Source of the DNA: Sulfitobacter sp.
GTDB lineage: Bacteria > Pseudomonadota > Alphaproteobacteria > Rhodobacterales > Rhodobacteraceae
DNA: 64,000 bases
Assembly: GCA_013002405.1 (NCBI GenBank)
Contig: JABDKA010000049.1
Location: 16,979-80,978, forward strand
Reading direction: 5' to 3'
The notes below the pieces were generated by a model, which saw only the letters and a list, made by a program, of their open reading frames with translations, did not search any database and was not told the origin of the DNA. A program made the position numbers and the translations under genes. This document shows positions 7,008 through 18,668 of this stretch, in pieces (positions within the stretch are counted from its first letter, which is position 1; each line of letters starts with the position of its first letter).

Positions 7008-7031
7008 CCGCAAATTCAGAACACTTTGAGA

Positions 7032-7057
7032 AGCCCCGCCAATCGGCGGGGCTTTTT
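7032..7057 (+). terminator. Rho-independent terminator after the small acidic protein
   Basis: AGCCCCGCC-AATC-GGCGGGGCT followed by TTTT. Confidence 0.85.
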
Positions 7058-7154
7058 GCTGTGGGAAGGGCATGCCAAAGGTAGTCGTGGCATCGTCCGG
7101 CCACTTCACGCTATCAATGTCCTGCGCACTTTGCCCCAGCGGCAGGAGACCCGC

Positions 7155-10100
7155 TTGACCCGGCTTTTTTCATCCAAAGACCGTCCCATGCACCTCGGCC
7201 CCTATCCGGTGGAAAAGCTGCGCCGGATGGTTGCCCTTCCGGACCTCGGAAAGGTCCCGCCGATGGTGCCGCTGAGCTTTGATCGGCCGGAGGATCCCTT
7301 TTCCATCGTCAATGCGATGCGGGAACATCAGGCGATGCTGGACACGATCCGGGGCGGATTGGTGAATGGGGTGATAGCGGTCACTCCTGACGATCCGCTA
7401 GAGCGCGCGAACCACCTGAAATCATTTGGTTACTTTGCCGACGCCGCTGTCGTTGGGACCTGCCTCTTGCCTGAGGCGGCGCTTCTGGAAAGGCCGATTA
7501 TCAATCCGGATGTGGCGCAGCTGGCAGAAGACTTACAGACAAAGCAGACCAAGACACTGGCCTCGGGCATCGACATGATCATGGCTGATCTCAAGGAATC
7601 CGCTGCTGCCGAGCTGCCGGGAATTGAGGGTCACAGCCACGCGATTGTCTTTCTCTACGAAAACCCCCGTGAGGTCCGGACGGATGAGCCCGGGATCTGC
7701 TGGATCAGGGACGCGCAGGCCCACCGGGCCGGTCTGCTTGCCGCAGAAACGGCCTGCGTGATCGCCAATTACCTGCGGTTGCTGGGGCACGATGCGCGGG
7801 GGCATACGGTATCGGCAAGCGATGTTGACCTGGGCAAGCTGGCGGTCGCTGCGGGTCTGGCGACGGTCGAGAAGGGCGCTTTACACCACCCCTACATCAG
7901 AGACCGCTTTGGTCTGGCGGCCGTGACCACCAGCTTTGAGATTGCGCCGGACCAGCCGCTTGCGTCGCTCGCGGATCAGCCCGGCTCGGCCTTTGGCATT
8001 GGTTGGCGCATGGCGGGCTCGGCCCCCAAGAACGCGGGTAATGCGGTCCCCTATGCCAAGCGCCGCTTCGTTGACGGTGCCCAACCGTTCGAGCGGCTCA
8101 AGCGGGTGGATGAACCCACGACATACATCGATGAGGCGCAGGTTGCCCGGGTGCCCAAACGCACCGACATGTTCGCCCGCGCACAGTTCGGCGACATGGG
8201 CAAGAAGCTGCAGGAAAGCGCAACTGGCGGGCACTACGTGCGCAAGGCGGCACCCTCCATGGCACAGCGCCGGGCACTTGGCGCTTTCGTTCTGTTGCAG
8301 GACGGGACGCCTGCGGAAGAAAAGCAAGAGATCGAGCCGCAGACAGCCGCTGACCTGATCAAGGCGACCAGCTATTTCCTGGGAATCGACGCGGTCGGTA
8401 TATCCCGTTGTCCCGACTGGACCTGGTACAGCCACGACGCCCGGGGAGAGGTCATTGACCCGCCGCACGATCAGGCCATCAGCATGGTGGTCGATCAGGG
8501 ATATGAGACCATGGAAGGCTCCTCGGGCGATGACTGGATCGCCGTGGCACAGTCCATGCGTGCCTATCTTCGGTTTTCATTGCTGGGCGGTGTGATCGCC
8601 AAGCAGATTCGAAACCTGGGCTACAGCGCCAAGGCCCATACGGTGATGGATGGTGAGGTTCTGCAGCCGCCGCTGCTGCTCTTGTCAGGGTTGGGAGAGG
8701 TCAGCCGCATCGGTGAGGTGATACTCAACCCCTATCTGGGGCCACGGTTGAAGTCCGGCGTTGTCACGACCGACCTGCCGATGGCGCACGACAAGCCCAT
8801 TGATTTCGGCCTGCAGACCTTTTGCGAAAGCTGCAACAAATGCGCGCGGGAATGTCCTGCGGGGGCCATCACGGCAGGTCCCAAGCTGATGTTCAACGGC
8901 TACGAAATCTGGAAATCAGACAGCCAGAAATGCACGACCTACCGGATCACCACCGAAGGCGGCGCAATGTGCGGGCGCTGCATGAAGACCTGCCCCTGGA
9001 ATCTTGAGGGCATTTTCAAGGAAAGACCTTTCCGGTGGGCCGCGATGAACGTACCGCAACTGGCCCCCGCACTGGCCCGGTTGGACGATGCGGTGGGCAA
9101 CGGGGGGCTGAACCCGGTCAAGAAATGGTGGTGGGACCTGGAGATCAGGGAGGATGGCGGCTACCGCCCCACCACCAAGCCCGTGAACCGGCGCGATCTG
9201 CAGCGCGATCTTGATCTGAAGTATGAGGATCAGACCCTGGCCGTCTATCCTGCCCCCCTGGCCCCGCACCCCTATCCCTATCCCTTCCCCATGGACCGCG
9301 AGGCGGGGATCCAGGCCTATCAGGCGATGGTCAGCGCGGATGAGCACCGGAGGCGCCGGGCCCAGGGAGACGAGAGGGTGCTGCACAAATACACCGCACG
9401 TGATGAAAGTCCCGTGCTTGAGGTTGAGATCACCCGGGCGGAGGAAATGGCCGACGGGGTGACCAAGTATGAGTTCCAACTGACGGATCGGGGCGATCTG
9501 CCAGTCTGGGAGGCGGGCGCGCACCTCGATCTTGTGGTCGCGCCGGAATACCTTCGGCAGTATTCGATGTCCGGCGATCCGGCAGACCGGAGCCGCTATC
9601 AGATCGGAGTTCTGCGAGAGGAGGCCGGGCGGGGCGGCTCCAAACTGCTGCACCGTATCTTTGACGTCGGTCGGCGCATCTTCATCTCGCGGCCGATCAA
9701 TCACTTCGCGCTCGACCCCTCGGCGACGAAGGTCTTCCTCATGGGTGGCGGGATCGGGATCACCCCGATGATCGCCATGGCCCAGACCCTGCACCGCGAA
9801 AGGCGCGAGTTCGAGATGCACTATTCGGGCCGCTCTCGTAACCAGATGGGATACCTGAAAGATCTGGACAGCTTTGAGTGGTCCGATCGGGTGCATTTGC
9901 ACATCAGTGATGAAGGCACGCGGCTGGACCTGGCGCGGTTCTTTGACCGCTACAATGAAGGTTGGCACGTCTACACCTGCGGGGCGGATCGCTACATGAC
10001 CGCGGTACTGGATGCGGCGGAACGGGCGGGCTTTCCCGAAGGGGCGCGGCACCTGGAATATTTCTCCGTTCCCGAGGTCCCCGAGTATGAGAACCATCCC

Positions 10101-10361
10101 TTCAAACTGCGTCTTGCTTCAACCGGTGAGACACTTGATGTCCCGGCTGACAAGACAGCCGCTGAGGTGCTGATTGCCCATGGTCATCCTGTCGACATGA
10201 AGTGCGATGATGGCATCTGCGGTGTCTGCCGCTGCGGGGTCATCGCGGGAGAGGTCGAGCACCGCGATTTCGTCCTTTCGGCGGTGCAAAGGAAGGACGG
10301 CATGATCCTGTGCCAATCGCGCGCCCTCGCAAAAGACGGTGAGATCACGCTCGACCTTTGA
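7155..10361 (+). CDS. Fused catabolic-type reductive dehalogenase: corrinoid/2x[4Fe-4S] RdhA module + FNR-like flavin reductase + plant-type [2Fe-2S] ferredoxin
   Basis: CESCNKCARECPAGAI and CTTYRITTEGGAMCGRCMKTCPW iron-sulfur motifs; RQYSMSGDP and GGGIGITPMIAMA reductase motifs; C-terminal CDDGICGVCRCGV...C ferredoxin motif. Start set at TTG 7155 (AGGAG at 7144-7148) because the ORF-track start at 7026 runs through the terminator; ATG 7188 is an alternative. Confidence 0.88.
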   Translation: MTRLFSSKDRPMHLGPYPVEKLRRMVALPDLGKVPPMVPLSFDRPEDPFSIVNAMREHQAMLDTIRGGLVNGVIAVTPDDPLERANHLKSFGYFADAAVVGTCLLPEAALLERPIINPDVAQLAEDLQTKQTKTLASGIDMIMADLKESAAAELPGIEGHSHAIVFLYENPREVRTDEPGICWIRDAQAHRAGLLAAETACVIANYLRLLGHDARGHTVSASDVDLGKLAVAAGLATVEKGALHHPYIRDRFGLAAVTTSFEIAPDQPLASLADQPGSAFGIGWRMAGSAPKNAGNAVPYAKRRFVDGAQPFERLKRVDEPTTYIDEAQVARVPKRTDMFARAQFGDMGKKLQESATGGHYVRKAAPSMAQRRALGAFVLLQDGTPAEEKQEIEPQTAADLIKATSYFLGIDAVGISRCPDWTWYSHDARGEVIDPPHDQAISMVVDQGYETMEGSSGDDWIAVAQSMRAYLRFSLLGGVIAKQIRNLGYSAKAHTVMDGEVLQPPLLLLSGLGEVSRIGEVILNPYLGPRLKSGVVTTDLPMAHDKPIDFGLQTFCESCNKCARECPAGAITAGPKLMFNGYEIWKSDSQKCTTYRITTEGGAMCGRCMKTCPWNLEGIFKERPFRWAAMNVPQLAPALARLDDAVGNGGLNPVKKWWWDLEIREDGGYRPTTKPVNRRDLQRDLDLKYEDQTLAVYPAPLAPHPYPYPFPMDREAGIQAYQAMVSADEHRRRRAQGDERVLHKYTARDESPVLEVEITRAEEMADGVTKYEFQLTDRGDLPVWEAGAHLDLVVAPEYLRQYSMSGDPADRSRYQIGVLREEAGRGGSKLLHRIFDVGRRIFISRPINHFALDPSATKVFLMGGGIGITPMIAMAQTLHRERREFEMHYSGRSRNQMGYLKDLDSFEWSDRVHLHISDEGTRLDLARFFDRYNEGWHVYTCGADRYMTAVLDAAERAGFPEGARHLEYFSVPEVPEYENHPFKLRLASTGETLDVPADKTAAEVLIAHGHPVDMKCDDGICGVCRCGVIAGEVEHRDFVLSAVQRKDGMILCQSRALAKDGEITLDL

Positions 10362-10504
10362 CCTTCCGATAAGGGCATTTCACCTCCTGTTTAATTTGCC
10401 CGGGCCACGATGCCGGTCAAAGCAACCAGTTCTGCTCGGGTCGCCGCGTGGCTTCAGATGCAGGGCCGCAATCAAGGATTTGCCTAAACGCGGCGAGGAT
10501 AAAT

Positions 10505-11145
10505 ATGAACACGCCGAACACCCTGTCGAGCTTTGTTGACCGGATGCCGACCAGCACACTGGAGCAGTGTAATCGGGAAGAGATCCACCTGTCCGGTCCC
10601 ATTCAGGAAGGTGGAGCCCCTGTCCTGCTGGTTCGGAAAAAAGCGCCAAATCGTTGGGGTTTCGAAGGACCTCGATGCCTTTCTGCCCCGCAACCCGCCG
10701 AGCTGCTTTCCCGTCCCCTCATGACACCGGGTGCCGGTCTGGCGGATAAGATCGATGCAGTTGAAGGCGAGCAGCAGGTCCTGCACGGGGTTCTTGAATT
10801 TGGTTTTCCCCGGGGTGGCGTTGAATAGGCCACCGTCCCCCACCTGCACGATGGCAAACGGACCATCGAATTTCTGCCGAATCACAGACCCTCAGCCAAG
10901 GCGGTGCGGAGCAAGATGCGGCTCTGCGGATCAGGCTGGACGTCCACGCCGAGAACGACAAAATGGTCGAGGTCGCGGTGACGGACACTGATCTTGGCAT
11001 TCCTGCGGAGCTTGCGGAGAATGTGATGAAGCCAATGCAAAGGCTGCACAGTCCGGCCGCGTCATTGGGGGATTGGGTCACGGCCTTCTGCAAAGGCACC
11101 GGGGCATCGCCGCCGTCCCCCCAAATCGGTGGATCCCAATCAGCA
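10505..11145 (+). pseudogene. Degenerate bacteriophytochrome/light-sensor histidine kinase: PAS2-domain remnant joined to a HATPase_c remnant, with frameshifts, a stop and a large internal deletion
   Basis: STLEQCNREEIHLSGPIQEGGA resembles the phytochrome N-terminal 'CxREPIHIPGxIQPHGxL'; KKRQIVGVSKDLDAFLPRN lies in a second frame, then AELLSRPLMTPGAGLADKI back in the first; HDGKRTIEFLPN in a third; VEVAVTDTDLGIPAELAENVMKPMQRLHSP resembles the HATPase G1/F boxes. Confidence 0.65.
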
Positions 11146-11146
11146 T

Positions 11147-12589
11147 TCAGCCCGCACCAAAAGCATCCCGCGCAACCTGAGCTGTGACCAGCAGGCCGGT
11201 TTCCATATTGGTGAACTCCAACCGGCCACCGTGCAAAGCCACGATCTCGGAGGCGATGGACAGGCCCAGCCCCACACCCCGCTCCTTCGTCGCGCCGTGG
11301 CCGCGCATGAAGGGCAGGATCACCCGGTCCAACTGATCCGGCTCGATGCCGGGCCCGAAATCGCGGACACTGACCTTGAGCGTGCTCTCCGTATCCGGAC
11401 CCACCTCAACTACCGCGCGGCCGCCGTATTTCAGTGCATTGTCGATCAGGTTGGAAAAGGCGCGCCGCAGCTTGTCCGGCTGCCCCCGCATGAAGCACTG
11501 GTTGTCCGCGCGCACCCGGACATCTTCGGCAGCGGCAAAGATTGACCCGGCAGAGCGCAGATCAACCTCTTCGGGTGCGATGAATTCTACATTTCGCCCC
11601 ACATCGCGGTAGTCATTCACGAGGCTTTCCAGAAGGGAGACAAGCGAGAAGCGCAGGCTTTCTTCCTCCTGCGCGCCGATGCTGAGCAAATCCAACGCAC
11701 CGTCGATGATGCCGGTGATCTCATCCAGGTCCGCTTCGAACCTCTCGTGGAGTGCCGGATCCTCAAGCAATTCGGTGCGCAGCCGCATCCGGGTCACAGG
11801 CGTGCGCAGATCGTGCGAGATGGCCGCAAGCCCGCGGGACTTGCGTTCCTGTTCGTTGCGGAACTGTTCGGTCAGATGGTCAATCCGGTCCCCGATCATC
11901 AGCGCTTCGGTCGAGGCGAGGGGCGGCATGGGGCGCGTGGCCAATCGCCGGATGGCAAGCCGTTGGAAGGGCGCGGCGAGGTTCACGGCCAGCGGCAGAA
12001 AGAGCGAAAGGCCAATCGCGAAACCGGCAACGCCAAGGAGTGCTGTGAGGGTCTGGCTGAACCGGTCCTGCCAGAGACGTGGCGCGTCGATGAAAAGAAC
12101 GTCACCGCCCGGCAGGAACAGCACCAGGCGCGTCTCCTGATCCTGACGGGCAATCGCCTTGGACAGGGCGGCAAGACGGTCCGCGGCGGAAAGGGTGCTG
12201 TCCCCGGTCTGCAGCGCCTGGGGCAGTTTGGCGGGCTGATCAAACCTGATGGCTGCACGGTAGCGGGTCTCATCCAGCTCCAGGATCAGGGGAACGGTGG
12301 CGGTCGGCAGGGCCTCCGGCAGGCTGCGGCGGCGTTCGACCGTATAGGGCGCCCGGGTGTAACTGCCTGGGGCATTCAGGGATTTCGCTGTTTCGCGCCG
12401 GATGATTTCGGCCAGAACCTCACCCGATGTTTCTGCCTCGTTCAGCGCGCTGCCGCGTTTGTTGAAATTGTATACGGACAGCCCCGTTATGACCGCGCCC
12501 GCAACGTAGGCGACCAGCACAAGCAGTGGAAGGCGTTGCGCCAGCGCCTGCGGCAGAAGGCCGATCATGCTTGGGATTGGCCCCTTCAC
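11147..12589 (-). CDS. Two-component sensor histidine kinase (HAMP + HisKA + HATPase)
   Basis: AISHDLRTPVTRMRLRTELL H-box; RRAFSNLIDNALKYGG N-box; VRDFGPGI, GVGLGLSIASEIVALHGG; downstream of the response regulator. Confidence 0.92.
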   Translation of the reverse strand: MKGPIPSMIGLLPQALAQRLPLLVLVAYVAGAVITGLSVYNFNKRGSALNEAETSGEVLAEIIRRETAKSLNAPGSYTRAPYTVERRRSLPEALPTATVPLILELDETRYRAAIRFDQPAKLPQALQTGDSTLSAADRLAALSKAIARQDQETRLVLFLPGGDVLFIDAPRLWQDRFSQTLTALLGVAGFAIGLSLFLPLAVNLAAPFQRLAIRRLATRPMPPLASTEALMIGDRIDHLTEQFRNEQERKSRGLAAISHDLRTPVTRMRLRTELLEDPALHERFEADLDEITGIIDGALDLLSIGAQEEESLRFSLVSLLESLVNDYRDVGRNVEFIAPEEVDLRSAGSIFAAAEDVRVRADNQCFMRGQPDKLRRAFSNLIDNALKYGGRAVVEVGPDTESTLKVSVRDFGPGIEPDQLDRVILPFMRGHGATKERGVGLGLSIASEIVALHGGRLEFTNMETGLLVTAQVARDAFGAG

Positions 12590-12590
12590 C

Positions 12591-13301
12591 TCAGCGCAAC
12601 TTTTTCAGCTCTGCGGCGAACTGGTAGCCCTTGTTGCGCACCGTGCGGATGAAATCCGCGCCATGGACGGCCCCTGACAGCTTCTTTCGCAGGCGGCTAA
12701 CCAATATGTCGACACGGCGGTCTTCGGGTCCCAGCTCCATCTCGAATATTCGCCGCCCGATCACTTCACGGCTGACAGGATCGGGGGAGGCGCCAAGGAG
12801 AAGCGTGATAAGCTGGTATTCGGTCGAACTGAGGGGAACGTGCGTGTTGTCCGGGCTCTGTAATTTCTGGTTTGCCATATCCAGCATCCAACCGGCAAAG
12901 CCAACCGTCCCGGAGAGGCGCCTTTCCGTGCTCTCCCGGCTGCGACGAAGAAGTCCGTTGATGCGGGCCAGCAGTTCGCGCGGGTTGAAGGGCTTTTCAA
13001 GGTAGTCGTCAGCGCCCAATTCGATGCCCTTGATCCTGTTGGCATCCCCCCGCATCGCCGACAGGATGATCAGCGGCACATCGGACTGCCCGCGCACCCA
13101 TCTGCAAAAGGACAGGCCATCCTGCCCGGGCAGCGTGATGTCGACGATGAACAGATCAAACCCGTCCAGGCCCTGACGCTGGCCCGATTCCGCCGTGTCT
13201 GACACCACGCATTCAAAGTCGCGCTTCTTCAGGTAGGTGGATAGAAGCGAGGAGATTTCGGCGTCATCCTCGATGATGTGAACACGGGGCAAGGGTGTCA
13301 T
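12591..13301 (-). CDS. OmpR/PhoB-family response regulator (GltR-like context)
   Basis: MTPLPRVHIIEDDAEISSLLSTYL; DLFIVDITLPGQDG receiver; winged-helix VDILVSRLRKKL...FIRTVRNKGYQF; ATG 13301 with GGAGGGG SD. Confidence 0.93.
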   Translation of the reverse strand: MTPLPRVHIIEDDAEISSLLSTYLKKRDFECVVSDTAESGQRQGLDGFDLFIVDITLPGQDGLSFCRWVRGQSDVPLIILSAMRGDANRIKGIELGADDYLEKPFNPRELLARINGLLRRSRESTERRLSGTVGFAGWMLDMANQKLQSPDNTHVPLSSTEYQLITLLLGASPDPVSREVIGRRIFEMELGPEDRRVDILVSRLRKKLSGAVHGADFIRTVRNKGYQFAAELKKLR

Positions 13302-13443
13302 CCCCTCCTCTGGGATCTGGTCTGGTGAGGCTATCAGCATCCAGTGCGATACAAAATGTAACAAATCCAACCGGTACGGGTGGCGCTGTTTTTGCCTAAG
13401 GTTGCGCAGGCTCAACAGCCCAACACGATTCTGGGAGGAACAC

Positions 13444-14697
13444 ATGACATATTTTTCGAAAGCGCTGGTCAGCGCCGTTGCCCTGACCGTTGCAATGGCC
13501 GCTCCGGCCAAGGCGGACCCCAAGGCCGAGGTGCTCCACTATTGGACATCCGGTGGTGAAGCCAAGGCGGTGAAGGCGCTGCAGGAGGCATTTGCCGCCC
13601 GCGGTGGCGAATGGATCGACGCACCGGTGGCCGGTGGCGGCGGTGACGCGCAGGCGGCCGTTCTGCGGGCGCGCGTGCTGGCTGGCGATCCGCCAGCGGC
13701 CGTACAAATCAAGGGCCCCAATATTCAGGAGTGGGCCGAGGCCGGTGCACTGGCAGACCTGTCCGATGTGGCAGAGGCCCAGAACTGGGACGCGGTGTTG
13801 CCCCAGACCATTCAGGATATCGTCAAGTACGAAGGCAACTACGTGGCCGTTCCGGTGAACGTACACCGGGTTGACTGGATCTGGGCCAACCCCGAGGTGC
13901 TGGCGAAGGTTGGTGCCGACGTGCCGACAACATGGGACGAATTCAACGCGACAGCGGACAAGCTGCTGGCGGCCGGGATCATCCCTCTGGCCCACGGCGG
14001 ACAGCCCTGGCAAGACGCGACTGTCTTTGAAACCGTTGTGCTGGGCATCGGCGGTGTGGACTTCTACCGCAAGGCGCTGGTGGATCTGGACATGGACGCG
14101 CTGGGCTCTGACACGATGGTCGCGGTCTTCGACCAGATGCGCAAAATGCGCGGCTATGTGGACCCCGACTTCCCGGGCCGCGACTGGAACCTGGCGACGG
14201 CCATGGTGATGCGCGGTGAGGCCGCCATGCAGATTATGGGCGACTGGGCCAAGGGCGAGTTTGCCGCAGCAGGGTTGGAGCCGGGCAAGGACTATGTCTG
14301 CGCGCCGACACCTTCCGAGGGGGGCTACCTACTCAACTCTGACAGCTTCGCGATGTTCAACGTCTCTGGCGCGGACCAGGTGGAAGGCCAGAACCTTCTG
14401 TCCGAACTGATCCTCGGAACCGAGTTCCAGGAGACATTCAACCTCTTCAAGGGCTCCATTCCCGCCCGTACGGACGTACCGCGTGGTGAGTTCGACGCCT
14501 GTGCAATCAAGTCGATGGATGACATGGTTGCGGCGGCCGACGGCGGTACCCTTCTGGGCTCCATGGCGCACGAGATCGCACAGGCCGGTGCCGTCCGCGG
14601 CGCCTTCATCGACGTGGCCACGGCCCACTTCAACTCGGACATGTCCTCTGAAGAAGCGGTCGAAAAGCTGGTCTCTTCGATCAAGCTCGCGATGTAA
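13444..14697 (+). CDS. ABC transporter sugar (probable glucose/mannose) substrate-binding protein
   Basis: Signal peptide MTYFSKALVSAVALTVAMAAPAKA; VLHYWTSGGEAKAVKALQEAF family-1 solute-binding features; GtsA-like; followed by two permeases and an ATPase. Confidence 0.92.
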   Translation: MTYFSKALVSAVALTVAMAAPAKADPKAEVLHYWTSGGEAKAVKALQEAFAARGGEWIDAPVAGGGGDAQAAVLRARVLAGDPPAAVQIKGPNIQEWAEAGALADLSDVAEAQNWDAVLPQTIQDIVKYEGNYVAVPVNVHRVDWIWANPEVLAKVGADVPTTWDEFNATADKLLAAGIIPLAHGGQPWQDATVFETVVLGIGGVDFYRKALVDLDMDALGSDTMVAVFDQMRKMRGYVDPDFPGRDWNLATAMVMRGEAAMQIMGDWAKGEFAAAGLEPGKDYVCAPTPSEGGYLLNSDSFAMFNVSGADQVEGQNLLSELILGTEFQETFNLFKGSIPARTDVPRGEFDACAIKSMDDMVAAADGGTLLGSMAHEIAQAGAVRGAFIDVATAHFNSDMSSEEAVEKLVSSIKLAM

Positions 14698-14772
14698 GCC
14701 TTCTCCCAACGCGGCCTGGCCTCATTCGGGGTCGGGCCGCGCACCTTTACAGAGGTCGAGGAGAGGACAGTC

Positions 14773-15669
14773 ATGTCACGCCCCCCCATTCCCTTTACGG
14801 ATCGCATCGCCCGGGCGCTGCCGCAGATCGTCGTGGCCCCTTCATTTGCCGCGATCCTGTTCTTCGTCTACGGCTTTATCGCCTGGACCGGTTATATCTC
14901 GATGTCCAAGTCGAAGATGCTGCCAAACTACGATTTCGTCGGCATTCGTCAGTACTGGCGTCTTTTTCAGATGGACCGCTGGTCAGTCGCGCTGGAAAAC
15001 CTCTTCATCTTCGGATTCCTTTTCATCGCGGTCGCCATCGTCATCGGCTGTCTGCTGGCTGTCCTGCTGGATCAGCGCATCCGGGCCGAAGGTTTCATCC
15101 GCACCATCTATCTCTACCCGATGGCGATTTCCTTTATCATCACCGGAACGGCCTGGAAGTGGATCATGAACCCATCGCTGGGTCTGGAAACGGTCGTGCG
15201 CGGCTGGGGCTGGGAAAGCTTCCGCTTTGGCTGGACCAACGATGAAACGCTCGCCGTTTACGCGCTGGTCATGGCCGCCGTCTGGCAAAGCGCGGGCTTC
15301 GTGATGGCGCTGTTCCTCTCCGCCCTGCGGTCGGTCGATCAGGACATCATCAAGGCGGCGAGCCTGGATGGCGCTTCCCCCTGGAAAATCTACACCCGCA
15401 TCATCTTGCCCTCCATGAGGCCTGTCTTCATGTCGGCCGTGGTGATCCTGGCCCACCTTGCGATCAAGAGCTTCGATCTGGTCGTGGCGCTCACCGGCGG
15501 CGGTCCTGGCTATGCCTCAACCCTGCCCGCAAATTTCATGTACGAGATGACCTTCCGCCGGAATGAGATCGGCGTGGGTGCGGCCTCTGCCATGGTAATG
15601 CTGGCGACGGTGGCGGCGATCATGGTGCCCTACCTTTATTCTGAATTGCGGGGGAAGAAGCATGTCTGA
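14773..15669 (+). CDS. Sugar ABC transporter permease
   Basis: Multi-TM, EAA loop DIIKAASLDGASPWKIYTRIILPSMRP. Confidence 0.93.
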   Translation: MSRPPIPFTDRIARALPQIVVAPSFAAILFFVYGFIAWTGYISMSKSKMLPNYDFVGIRQYWRLFQMDRWSVALENLFIFGFLFIAVAIVIGCLLAVLLDQRIRAEGFIRTIYLYPMAISFIITGTAWKWIMNPSLGLETVVRGWGWESFRFGWTNDETLAVYALVMAAVWQSAGFVMALFLSALRSVDQDIIKAASLDGASPWKIYTRIILPSMRPVFMSAVVILAHLAIKSFDLVVALTGGGPGYASTLPANFMYEMTFRRNEIGVGAASAMVMLATVAAIMVPYLYSELRGKKHV

Positions 15670-16546
15670 TCACACCTACTCCCCCGCCCAAGGCCAGTCC
15701 GTCCTCTGGATGCGGCTCTTGCTTTGGGCGCTGCTGATCCTCTTTGCGATCTGGTTCCTGCTGCCTGCCTATGTGGTCGTTGGAACCTCGCTCAAGGATC
15801 TTGAGGAAATCCGCGGGGGCTCACTCCTTGCCCTCCCGCATGAGCTGAACTTCAGCGCCTGGAAACATGCCTGGAACGAGGCCTGCATCGGTGTCCGGTG
15901 CACCGGGTTGGAGCCGTATTTCTGGAACTCCGTCTTCATGGCCCTTCCGGCTGTCTTCATCTCAACCCTGCTGGGTGCGCTGACGGGTTATGCCCTGACC
16001 AAGTTTCAGTTTCGCGGGGCCAACATGATTTTCGCGCTGATCCTCTTTGGCTGTTTCGTGCCCTTCCAGGTGGTGATCCTGCCCATGGCTCAGACTTTGG
16101 GACGGCTGGGCATCACCAACACTGTCTATGGTCTGATCCTGGTTCACTCGGTCTATGGTCTGGCCTTCACCACGCTTTTTTTCCGCAACTACTATGTCAC
16201 CATTCCCGATGAACTGGTGCGCGCGGCTACCATCGACGGGGCGGGGTTCTTCACCATCTTTCGCCGGATCATTCTGCCCCTGTCACCACCCATCATCGTG
16301 GTGTCTGTCATTTGGCAGTTCACCCAGATCTGGAACGATTTCCTCTTCGGGGCCTCCTTCACCACCGGCGGCGCGCAGCCCATCACGGTGGCGATGAACA
16401 ACCTTGTGAATACCACCACGGGCGTCAAACAGTACAACGTCGATATGGCCGCGGCCCTGATCACCGCCGCGCCCACGCTTTTCGTCTATATCGTCGCGGG
16501 CCGCTATTTCGTGCGCGGGCTGACGGCGGGATCGGTCAAAGGATAA
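15662..16546 (+). CDS. Carbohydrate ABC transporter permease
   Basis: Multi-TM, EAA loop [27 protein letters not shown]; overlaps upstream permease. Confidence 0.93.
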
Positions 16547-16550
16547 TCTC

Positions 16551-17669
16551 ATGGCTTCTCTGACAATCAAGAACGCGGTCAAACGCTACGGCAACGTCGA
16601 GGTTCTCAAGGGCGTCGATATCGACCTTGAGGATGGAGAGTTCCTGGTGCTGCTCGGGGCCTCCGGCTGCGGCAAATCCACCCTGTTGAACATGATCGCG
16701 GGGCTGGAAAGCGTGACCGAAGGTGAGATCATGATTGGTGACCGGGTCATCAACGACGTCCATCCCAAGGACCGCGACATCGCGATGGTGTTCCAGTCCT
16801 ACGCGCTTTACCCCAACATGTCGGTTGGCAAGAACATCTCCTTCGGGCTGGAAATGCGCGGCGTGCCCAAGAAGGAGCGGGACCAGGCGGTGCAGGAGGT
16901 GGCGAAGATGCTGCAGATGGATCACCTGCTGGACCGCAAACCGTCACAGCTTTCCGGTGGTCAGCGGCAGCGGGTGGCCATGGGCCGCGCCTTGGTGCGG
17001 CGGCCTGAGGTATTCCTGTTCGACGAACCGCTTTCAAACCTTGACGCCAAGCTGCGCCTTGAGATGCGGACCGAGATCAAGCGCCTGCACAAGCGGCTGA
17101 ATGCGACCATGGTATATGTCACGCACGACCAGATCGAGGCGCTGACGCTGGCCGACCGTATCGCGATCCTGAAGGACGGTGAGGTCCAGCAACTGGGCAC
17201 CCCGGCTGAGATTTATGACCGTCCGGTGAATATGTTCGTTGCTGGCCTTGTCGGCTCACCACCGATGAACTTCATTGAGGCGACGGTGGTGCGCACCGAT
17301 AGTGGATACGCCGCTGAGGTCATGGTCCGCGCCGCAGGGGCGGATCAGACAGTCCTTCTCGACCTTGATGCGCAGGCGGCGGATGTCTCTGACCGGGTGG
17401 GGCGAAAGATCATCGTGGGATTGCGCCCCGAAGCGATCACCCAGGCCGGTCAAAAGGCGGGCGGCGATGCACAAAGCTTTCCCTCCGACATCGACGTGAC
17501 CGAGGCAACGGGGGCTGACACGCTTTGCGTGCTGCACTGGAATGGCAAGGAAGTCATGGCGCGGGTCAGTTCCGGCTATGCCCAGATCATCGAAGGGACG
17601 ATGGATTTTGCCGTGGACATGAGCCGCGCGAGCCTGTTCGATCCAGAAACCGAGAAGCGGCTGGACTGA
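16551..17669 (+). CDS. Sugar ABC transporter ATP-binding protein (MalK/UgpC family)
   Basis: GASGCGKST Walker [34 protein letters not shown]-terminal TOBE-like region. Confidence 0.95.
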
Positions 17670-17693
17670 CCCCGCACCGGTCGGGAGGCGAAG

Positions 17694-18668
17694 ATGTGGC
17701 ACCTTGTTGCGGATGTGGGCGGTACGAACATGCGGCTTGCGGCCCTGTCGCCGGAAGGCGCGATATTGGAGCAGTGCTCCTTCGCCAGCGCCGATGCGCA
17801 GACGGTGCCTGACGCCTGCGCCGCATTCATTTCGGGGCGCGGCGCCGATCCGGCCTGGATCGTGGTGGCGGCGGCGGGTCCGGTTCGGGAAGGTGCGGTC
17901 AAGCTGACGAATGTGCACCAGACCCTGACGGAGGCGCAGTTGGCTGCGATTTGCCCGTCGGCCACCGTCCGCATTCTGAATGATTTCGAGGCGGCGGCCT
18001 GGTCACTGGCGACAGTCAGCCAGAAAGACGTGGAAATGCTTCGGGGTGCCTTGGACAATCGGAAGGCACCCCGTCTGATCATCGGTCCCGGGACGGGGCT
18101 GGGCGTGGGTGCCTTGATCTGGGCGCAAGGTCAGCCGCAGGTAGTCGCAGGCGAGGGCGGTCACGTGAGCCTGGCCCCTCGAACCTTTGAGGAAAGCCCC
18201 TATTTCGAGGCGCTTGTGGCCGCCCAGCCAGATTTCCGCATCGGCAACACCCTCGCTGTTGAGGCGGAGGCGATCCTGTCGGGGACCGGCATGCCCCACT
18301 TCTACCGCGCCATTGCGCAGGTGGAGGGGCAGGCGGCACCGCTTATCGGATCAGGGGAAATCTTTGCGGCCGCACGCGACAGACGTGACGGAGCGGCAGT
18401 GCGAGCAGTGACGCTTTTTCGGGACTACCTCGGCGGACTTGCAGGCGATCTGGGGCTGGCCTTCGGGGCCTGGGGCGGCATTTTCCTCACCGGCGGTGTG
18501 GCTCAGTCAAACCGCTGGCTCTTTGACGACGCTTTTCTGTCGGCGGTGAACGCGGGCGGACGGCACACTGCCTGGCGCGAGCGGTTGCCCGTCTGCCTTT
18601 ACCAGGATGCAAACTTTGGCCTGCTGGGCGCACGAAACTACATCGCGGCGCGGGAGCGGGGGGCATGA
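17694..18668 (+). CDS. glk: Glucokinase
   Basis: LVADVGGTNMRLAAL ATP-binding motif; LIIGPGTGLGVGALI; AGEGGHVSLAPR. Confidence 0.88.
   Translation: MWHLVADVGGTNMRLAALSPEGAILEQCSFASADAQTVPDACAAFISGRGADPAWIVVAAAGPVREGAVKLTNVHQTLTEAQLAAICPSATVRILNDFEAAAWSLATVSQKDVEMLRGALDNRKAPRLIIGPGTGLGVGALIWAQGQPQVVAGEGGHVSLAPRTFEESPYFEALVAAQPDFRIGNTLAVEAEAILSGTGMPHFYRAIAQVEGQAAPLIGSGEIFAAARDRRDGAAVRAVTLFRDYLGGLAGDLGLAFGAWGGIFLTGGVAQSNRWLFDDAFLSAVNAGGRHTAWRERLPVCLYQDANFGLLGARNYIAARERGA

Follow-up and report, generated by a model that had tools for sequence, protein, structure and literature searches.

The window analyzed here, a 64,000-nucleotide stretch from a Sulfitobacter sp. genome, raises the question of what lies between two intact genes: a fusion of a reductive dehalogenase with an oxidoreductase/2Fe-2S part upstream (7026-10361, + strand) and a convergent EnvZ-like histidine kinase downstream (11147-12589, - strand), both considered here only as flanks. 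The original prediction read the interval between them (10362-11146) as the remnant of a bacteriophytochrome, a biliverdin-binding red/far-red sensor histidine kinase in which light alters the chromophore and hence kinase autophosphorylation. The analysis presented here indicates that the interval does contain a dead bacteriophytochrome gene, almost certainly of the HisKA/HATPase_c type, with a true extent slightly inside the predicted one (approximately 10505-11113, + strand). The source assembly is a draft (252 contigs, 3.6 Mb, 90% complete), and the genus also includes Sulfitobacter sediminilitoris, whose strain JBTF-M27 carries the intact bacteriophytochrome used as the reference (L036, also L044; 743 aa; NZ_JAABNT010000004.1).

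The main test was a purpose-written frameshift-aware local alignment of window positions 10440-11200 against intact full-length relatives. The remnant matched the reference with a score of 293, compared to a mean of 44 (s.d. 6.6, maximum 65) for 100 dinucleotide shuffles, and it clearly matched six intact relatives, with scores of 225-302 compared to 38-54 for reverse-complement controls. Each half was also significant on its own against the reference, with scores of 222 for PAS2 and 100 for HATPase, where the best of 300 shuffles reached 67 and 50, respectively. These scores establish the homology and bear out the prediction of a PAS2 domain joined to a kinase end. Single-frame Pfam scans of frames A and C gave no match, and Pfam PAS_2 matched the stitched PAS2 piece weakly and under the cut-off (E 0.21). 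When the same piece was compared to all PDB sequences, 46 of the 51 rows, including all of the top 44, were bacteriophytochromes or fluorescent proteins derived from them (best E 0.0011). For the stitched HATPase piece on its own, PDB matches were only weak and mixed, and this piece was therefore re-tested against the full-length relatives. A tblastn search of the remnant's own genome with an intact protein returned two pieces at this locus, with E values of 2e-20 (one TAG inside) and 1e-6. A DNA search of a plasmid collection with the remnant gave no match, and a literature search found no paper on the decay of this phytochrome gene.

Many proteins share the HATPase fold, the neighboring gene downstream itself encodes a histidine kinase, and the two pieces sit in different frames; two unrelated fragments might therefore abut here, one a phytochrome PAS2 domain and the other the HATPase of another histidine kinase, such as a copy of the neighbor. 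This explanation is very improbable, as both halves prefer the same phytochrome subfamily over the other kinases tested by frameshift-aware alignment. The HATPase half scored 98-105 with three members of the subfamily of the PAS2 half, but the adjoining kinase gave only 49, and scores against other phytochrome kinases were 32-62. In addition, both halves lie on the same strand and in the same order as in the intact gene.

Read as a single decayed gene, the remnant begins at an ATG (10505-10507) shortly preceded by a Shine-Dalgarno-like GAGGA (both within 10494-10507, + strand), and its initial M pairs in the alignment with that of MSAPRSLTHFFD in the Pseudophaeobacter homolog (L045); the upstream positions 10362-10504 are intergenic DNA. 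The first part of PAS2 (10505-10645, + strand) lies in frame A, as defined by frameshift-aware alignment to L036 and L045 and by the PDB matches. Its biliverdin-binding position is occupied by a Cys (10568-10570; LEQCNREEIHLSGPIQ); this column is invariant in the six intact relatives, and the Cys is kept in the remnant, as had been predicted. Frameshift-aware alignment assigns a brief segment of PAS2 (IVGVSKDLDAFL; 10647-10686, + strand) to a different frame, with a frame slip on either side. The first of these slips had been assigned to an A6 run near 10640; this run (10637-10642) is a plausible site, but the exact position is ambiguous over approximately 20 nt around it. The remaining PAS2 (10687-10927, + strand) returns to frame A, contains the predicted stop as an in-frame TAG at 10826-10828, and ends with HLHDGKRTIEFLPN; frameshift-aware and DNA alignments both support it, the final 96 bp of PAS2 (10832-10927) being 71% identical in DNA sequence to the S. 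sediminilitoris gene. Frameshift-aware alignment then identifies a deletion junction (10913-10930, + strand) at which approximately 508 codons, comprising GAF, PHY, HisKA, and the start of the HATPase, are gone compared to the reference, corresponding to the loss of about 1.5 kb at approximately 10925 with a change of frame. The HATPase core (VEVAVTDTDLGIPAELAENVMKPMQRLHS; 10928-11052, + strand) follows in a third frame, whose open stretch covers at least 10891-11185, and was recognized by frameshift-aware alignment, tblastn, and the half-by-half scores. The last piece recognizable by frameshift-aware alignment (GLGHGLLQRHRG, resembling GLGLAICQRIVNAHGG; 11053-11113, + strand) lies past another frame slip, and no C-terminal end of the kinase was recognized in the alignments to relatives. 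In reference coordinates, the remnant retains PAS2 residues 12-146, skips 508 residues, and resumes with HATPase core residues 655-713. All of the peptides quoted in the original prediction were present in the frames it gave, and the reported absence of GAF, PHY, and HisKA holds when the remnant is set against intact PAS_2-GAF-PHY-HisKA-HATPase_c homologs. Because GAF and PHY are present in the intact relatives and absent here, the sequence is a remnant of the bacteriophytochrome family and not a functioning member of it.

The disabling changes comprise the slips between approximately 10627 and 10687, the TAG at 10826, the deletion, the slip near 11052, and the loss of the C-terminus. An intact gene might appear broken in this way through assembly or sequencing error, and both the draft state of the assembly and the position of one slip near the A6 homopolymer are in keeping with such an error. 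Single frame slips could indeed be sequencing errors, but such errors do not readily account for the large deletion or the TAG. The breaks are of several kinds, 7 of 37 family-invariant positions are substituted, the genes on both flanks are intact, and a tblastn search found the lost middle region of this subfamily nowhere else in the assembly, all of which makes error a highly improbable source of the whole pattern. Two kinase fragments on contigs 42 and 244 partly match the phytochrome kinase end; these lie at contig ends and were discounted as truncated by the assembly. The gene would instead have been lost by ordinary decay within this lineage, with the internal deletion placing the HATPase core directly after the end of PAS2 and the frame slips, the TAG, and the loss of the C-terminal end completing the breakage. 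Since the junction bases 10913-10930 can be read as either flank, it is suggested, though not proven, that the deletion ran between short similar stretches. No working sensor would be expected from this locus; translation from the ATG at 10505 would end after 107 residues, yielding a scrambled part of PAS2 with no GAF, PHY, or kinase. That this fragment is still made and serves some residual role is exceedingly doubtful. The chance that the phytochrome likeness is accidental and that an antisense or overlapping frame of the interval codes for a genuine but unrelated protein is negligible, as the open frames of 61-133 aa found on both strands have no Pfam match at E<=10, long chance open frames are usual in GC-rich DNA, and the likeness lies far above all shuffles.

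A PHY-domain search of the genus recovered ten phytochromes in seven genomes, the S. sediminilitoris reference among them, and the subfamily to which the remnant belongs is rare: of 397 genomes sampled across the family, 7 carry it. Its intact relatives are L036, L045/L049, L048, L050, L052, and plasmid copies in Leisingera and Ruegeria TM1040, found in varied gene neighborhoods that include the plasmids of the latter two genera. The S. sediminilitoris protein has the architecture PAS_2-GAF-PHY-HisKA-HATPase_c. The suggestion of an HWE kinase was not upheld; the relatives carry both HisKA (PF00512) and PF02518 and are of the HisKA/HATPase_c type, and the HATPase half scored only 32-45 with the HWE-type phytochromes (L022, L034, L035, L037b, and L038). 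In the S. sediminilitoris JBTF-M27 gene, the PAS2 and HATPase regions are collinear with those of the remnant and 41% of the retained residues are identical, but the gene is intact and located near rpsD rather than beside a dehalogenase gene, whereas the remnant is frameshifted and lacks 508 residues. The plasmid copies (Leisingera caerulea/aquaemixtae and Ruegeria sp. TM1040) belong to the same subfamily, with approximately 52% identity to the reference and frameshift-aware scores of 241 and 218 against the remnant and, unlike the remnant, they are mostly intact. In TM1040, the gene following the plasmid copy is annotated as a biliverdin-producing heme oxygenase, and a homolog occurs at the same place beside the Pseudophaeobacter copy (E 3e-15), but no heme-oxygenase remnant was found at window positions 9000-16000. 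Two subfamily copies on Leisingera plasmids (L100:1257-3479 on NZ_CP081034.1 and L101:1480-3704 on NZ_CP081088.1) are annotated in two to three pieces, as if frameshifted, while the phytochrome gene is whole on sister plasmids; these split copies represent either recurrent decay or sequencing error. In a divergent subfamily member (L054; G345, contig 4), NLSNQHNAQAHPVGMIQ replaces LxxCDxExIHLSGxIQ. The PAS2 cysteine thus seems to be missing, and the usual covalent attachment of biliverdin may therefore not occur in this protein.

Contig 67 of the same genome carries a second, intact bacteriophytochrome (L022:2414-5553, - strand; 856 aa) with the architecture PAS_2-GAF-PHY-HWE_HK-Response_reg. 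It has the same photosensory module but, unlike the remnant's family, an HWE kinase and a receiver domain. The possibility that the remnant is a decayed copy of this gene was rejected, as the two score only 57 by frameshift-aware alignment. Describing the remnant as a lost light sensor overstates the loss; given the intact HWE-type protein, red-light sensing as such has probably been kept. A gene of 190 aa overlaps the contig 67 phytochrome gene by four bases and, judged by position alone, may encode a divergent heme oxygenase; a family search and a PDB search give no support for this assignment.

The loss had been described as recent, which is not established by these data, given several independent breaks, changes at invariant positions, and no intact relative closer than approximately 43% identity over the retained residues. 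Among the 37 columns invariant in the six intact relatives, the remnant keeps 30, compared to 84-97% of invariant columns kept by each intact protein when left out in turn. Decay by substitution is moderate and structural decay heavy. The nearest intact relatives are only about 41-43% identical over the retained residues and a tree of these residues places the remnant without support (48%), so that the time of loss is only loosely bounded and may or may not be recent. In the same tree, the remnant's branch is only moderately longer than that of its neighbor (0.97 compared to 0.76).

The upstream dehalogenase fusion has a strong homolog in 54 of the 62 genomes of the genus; the 1111-aa protein combines a TIGR02486 part (189 bits, cut-off 160) with a C-terminal flavin/2Fe-2S reductase part, a layout that presumably resembles the aerobic self-sufficient reductive dehalogenases of the NpRdhA/BhbA type. 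Downstream, window positions 11147-18668 hold an EnvZ/OmpR-like pair beside a sugar ABC transporter (UgpC-like ATPase) and a glucokinase-like gene. This region looks like an accessory block, since none of the other 61 genomes of the genus contains a homolog of the EnvZ-like kinase at E 1e-80. A comparison of the same locus in sister strains had been proposed as a check; ten congeners contained neither an intact phytochrome nor a remnant within approximately 8 kb on either side of the dehalogenase gene. A simple reading is that this lineage acquired the gene by transfer and later lost it, and ancestral presence with loss in the sisters could also account for the distribution.

The locus is an ordinary pseudogene of a known kind, well supported, and it raises no general question. 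It illustrates that a stretch blank to gene finders can contain a recognizable remnant. Within the Roseobacter group, this phytochrome subfamily is patchily distributed on both chromosomes and plasmids, and the remnant is a small but clear example of a lineage that has lost one light-sensor kinase while retaining another.
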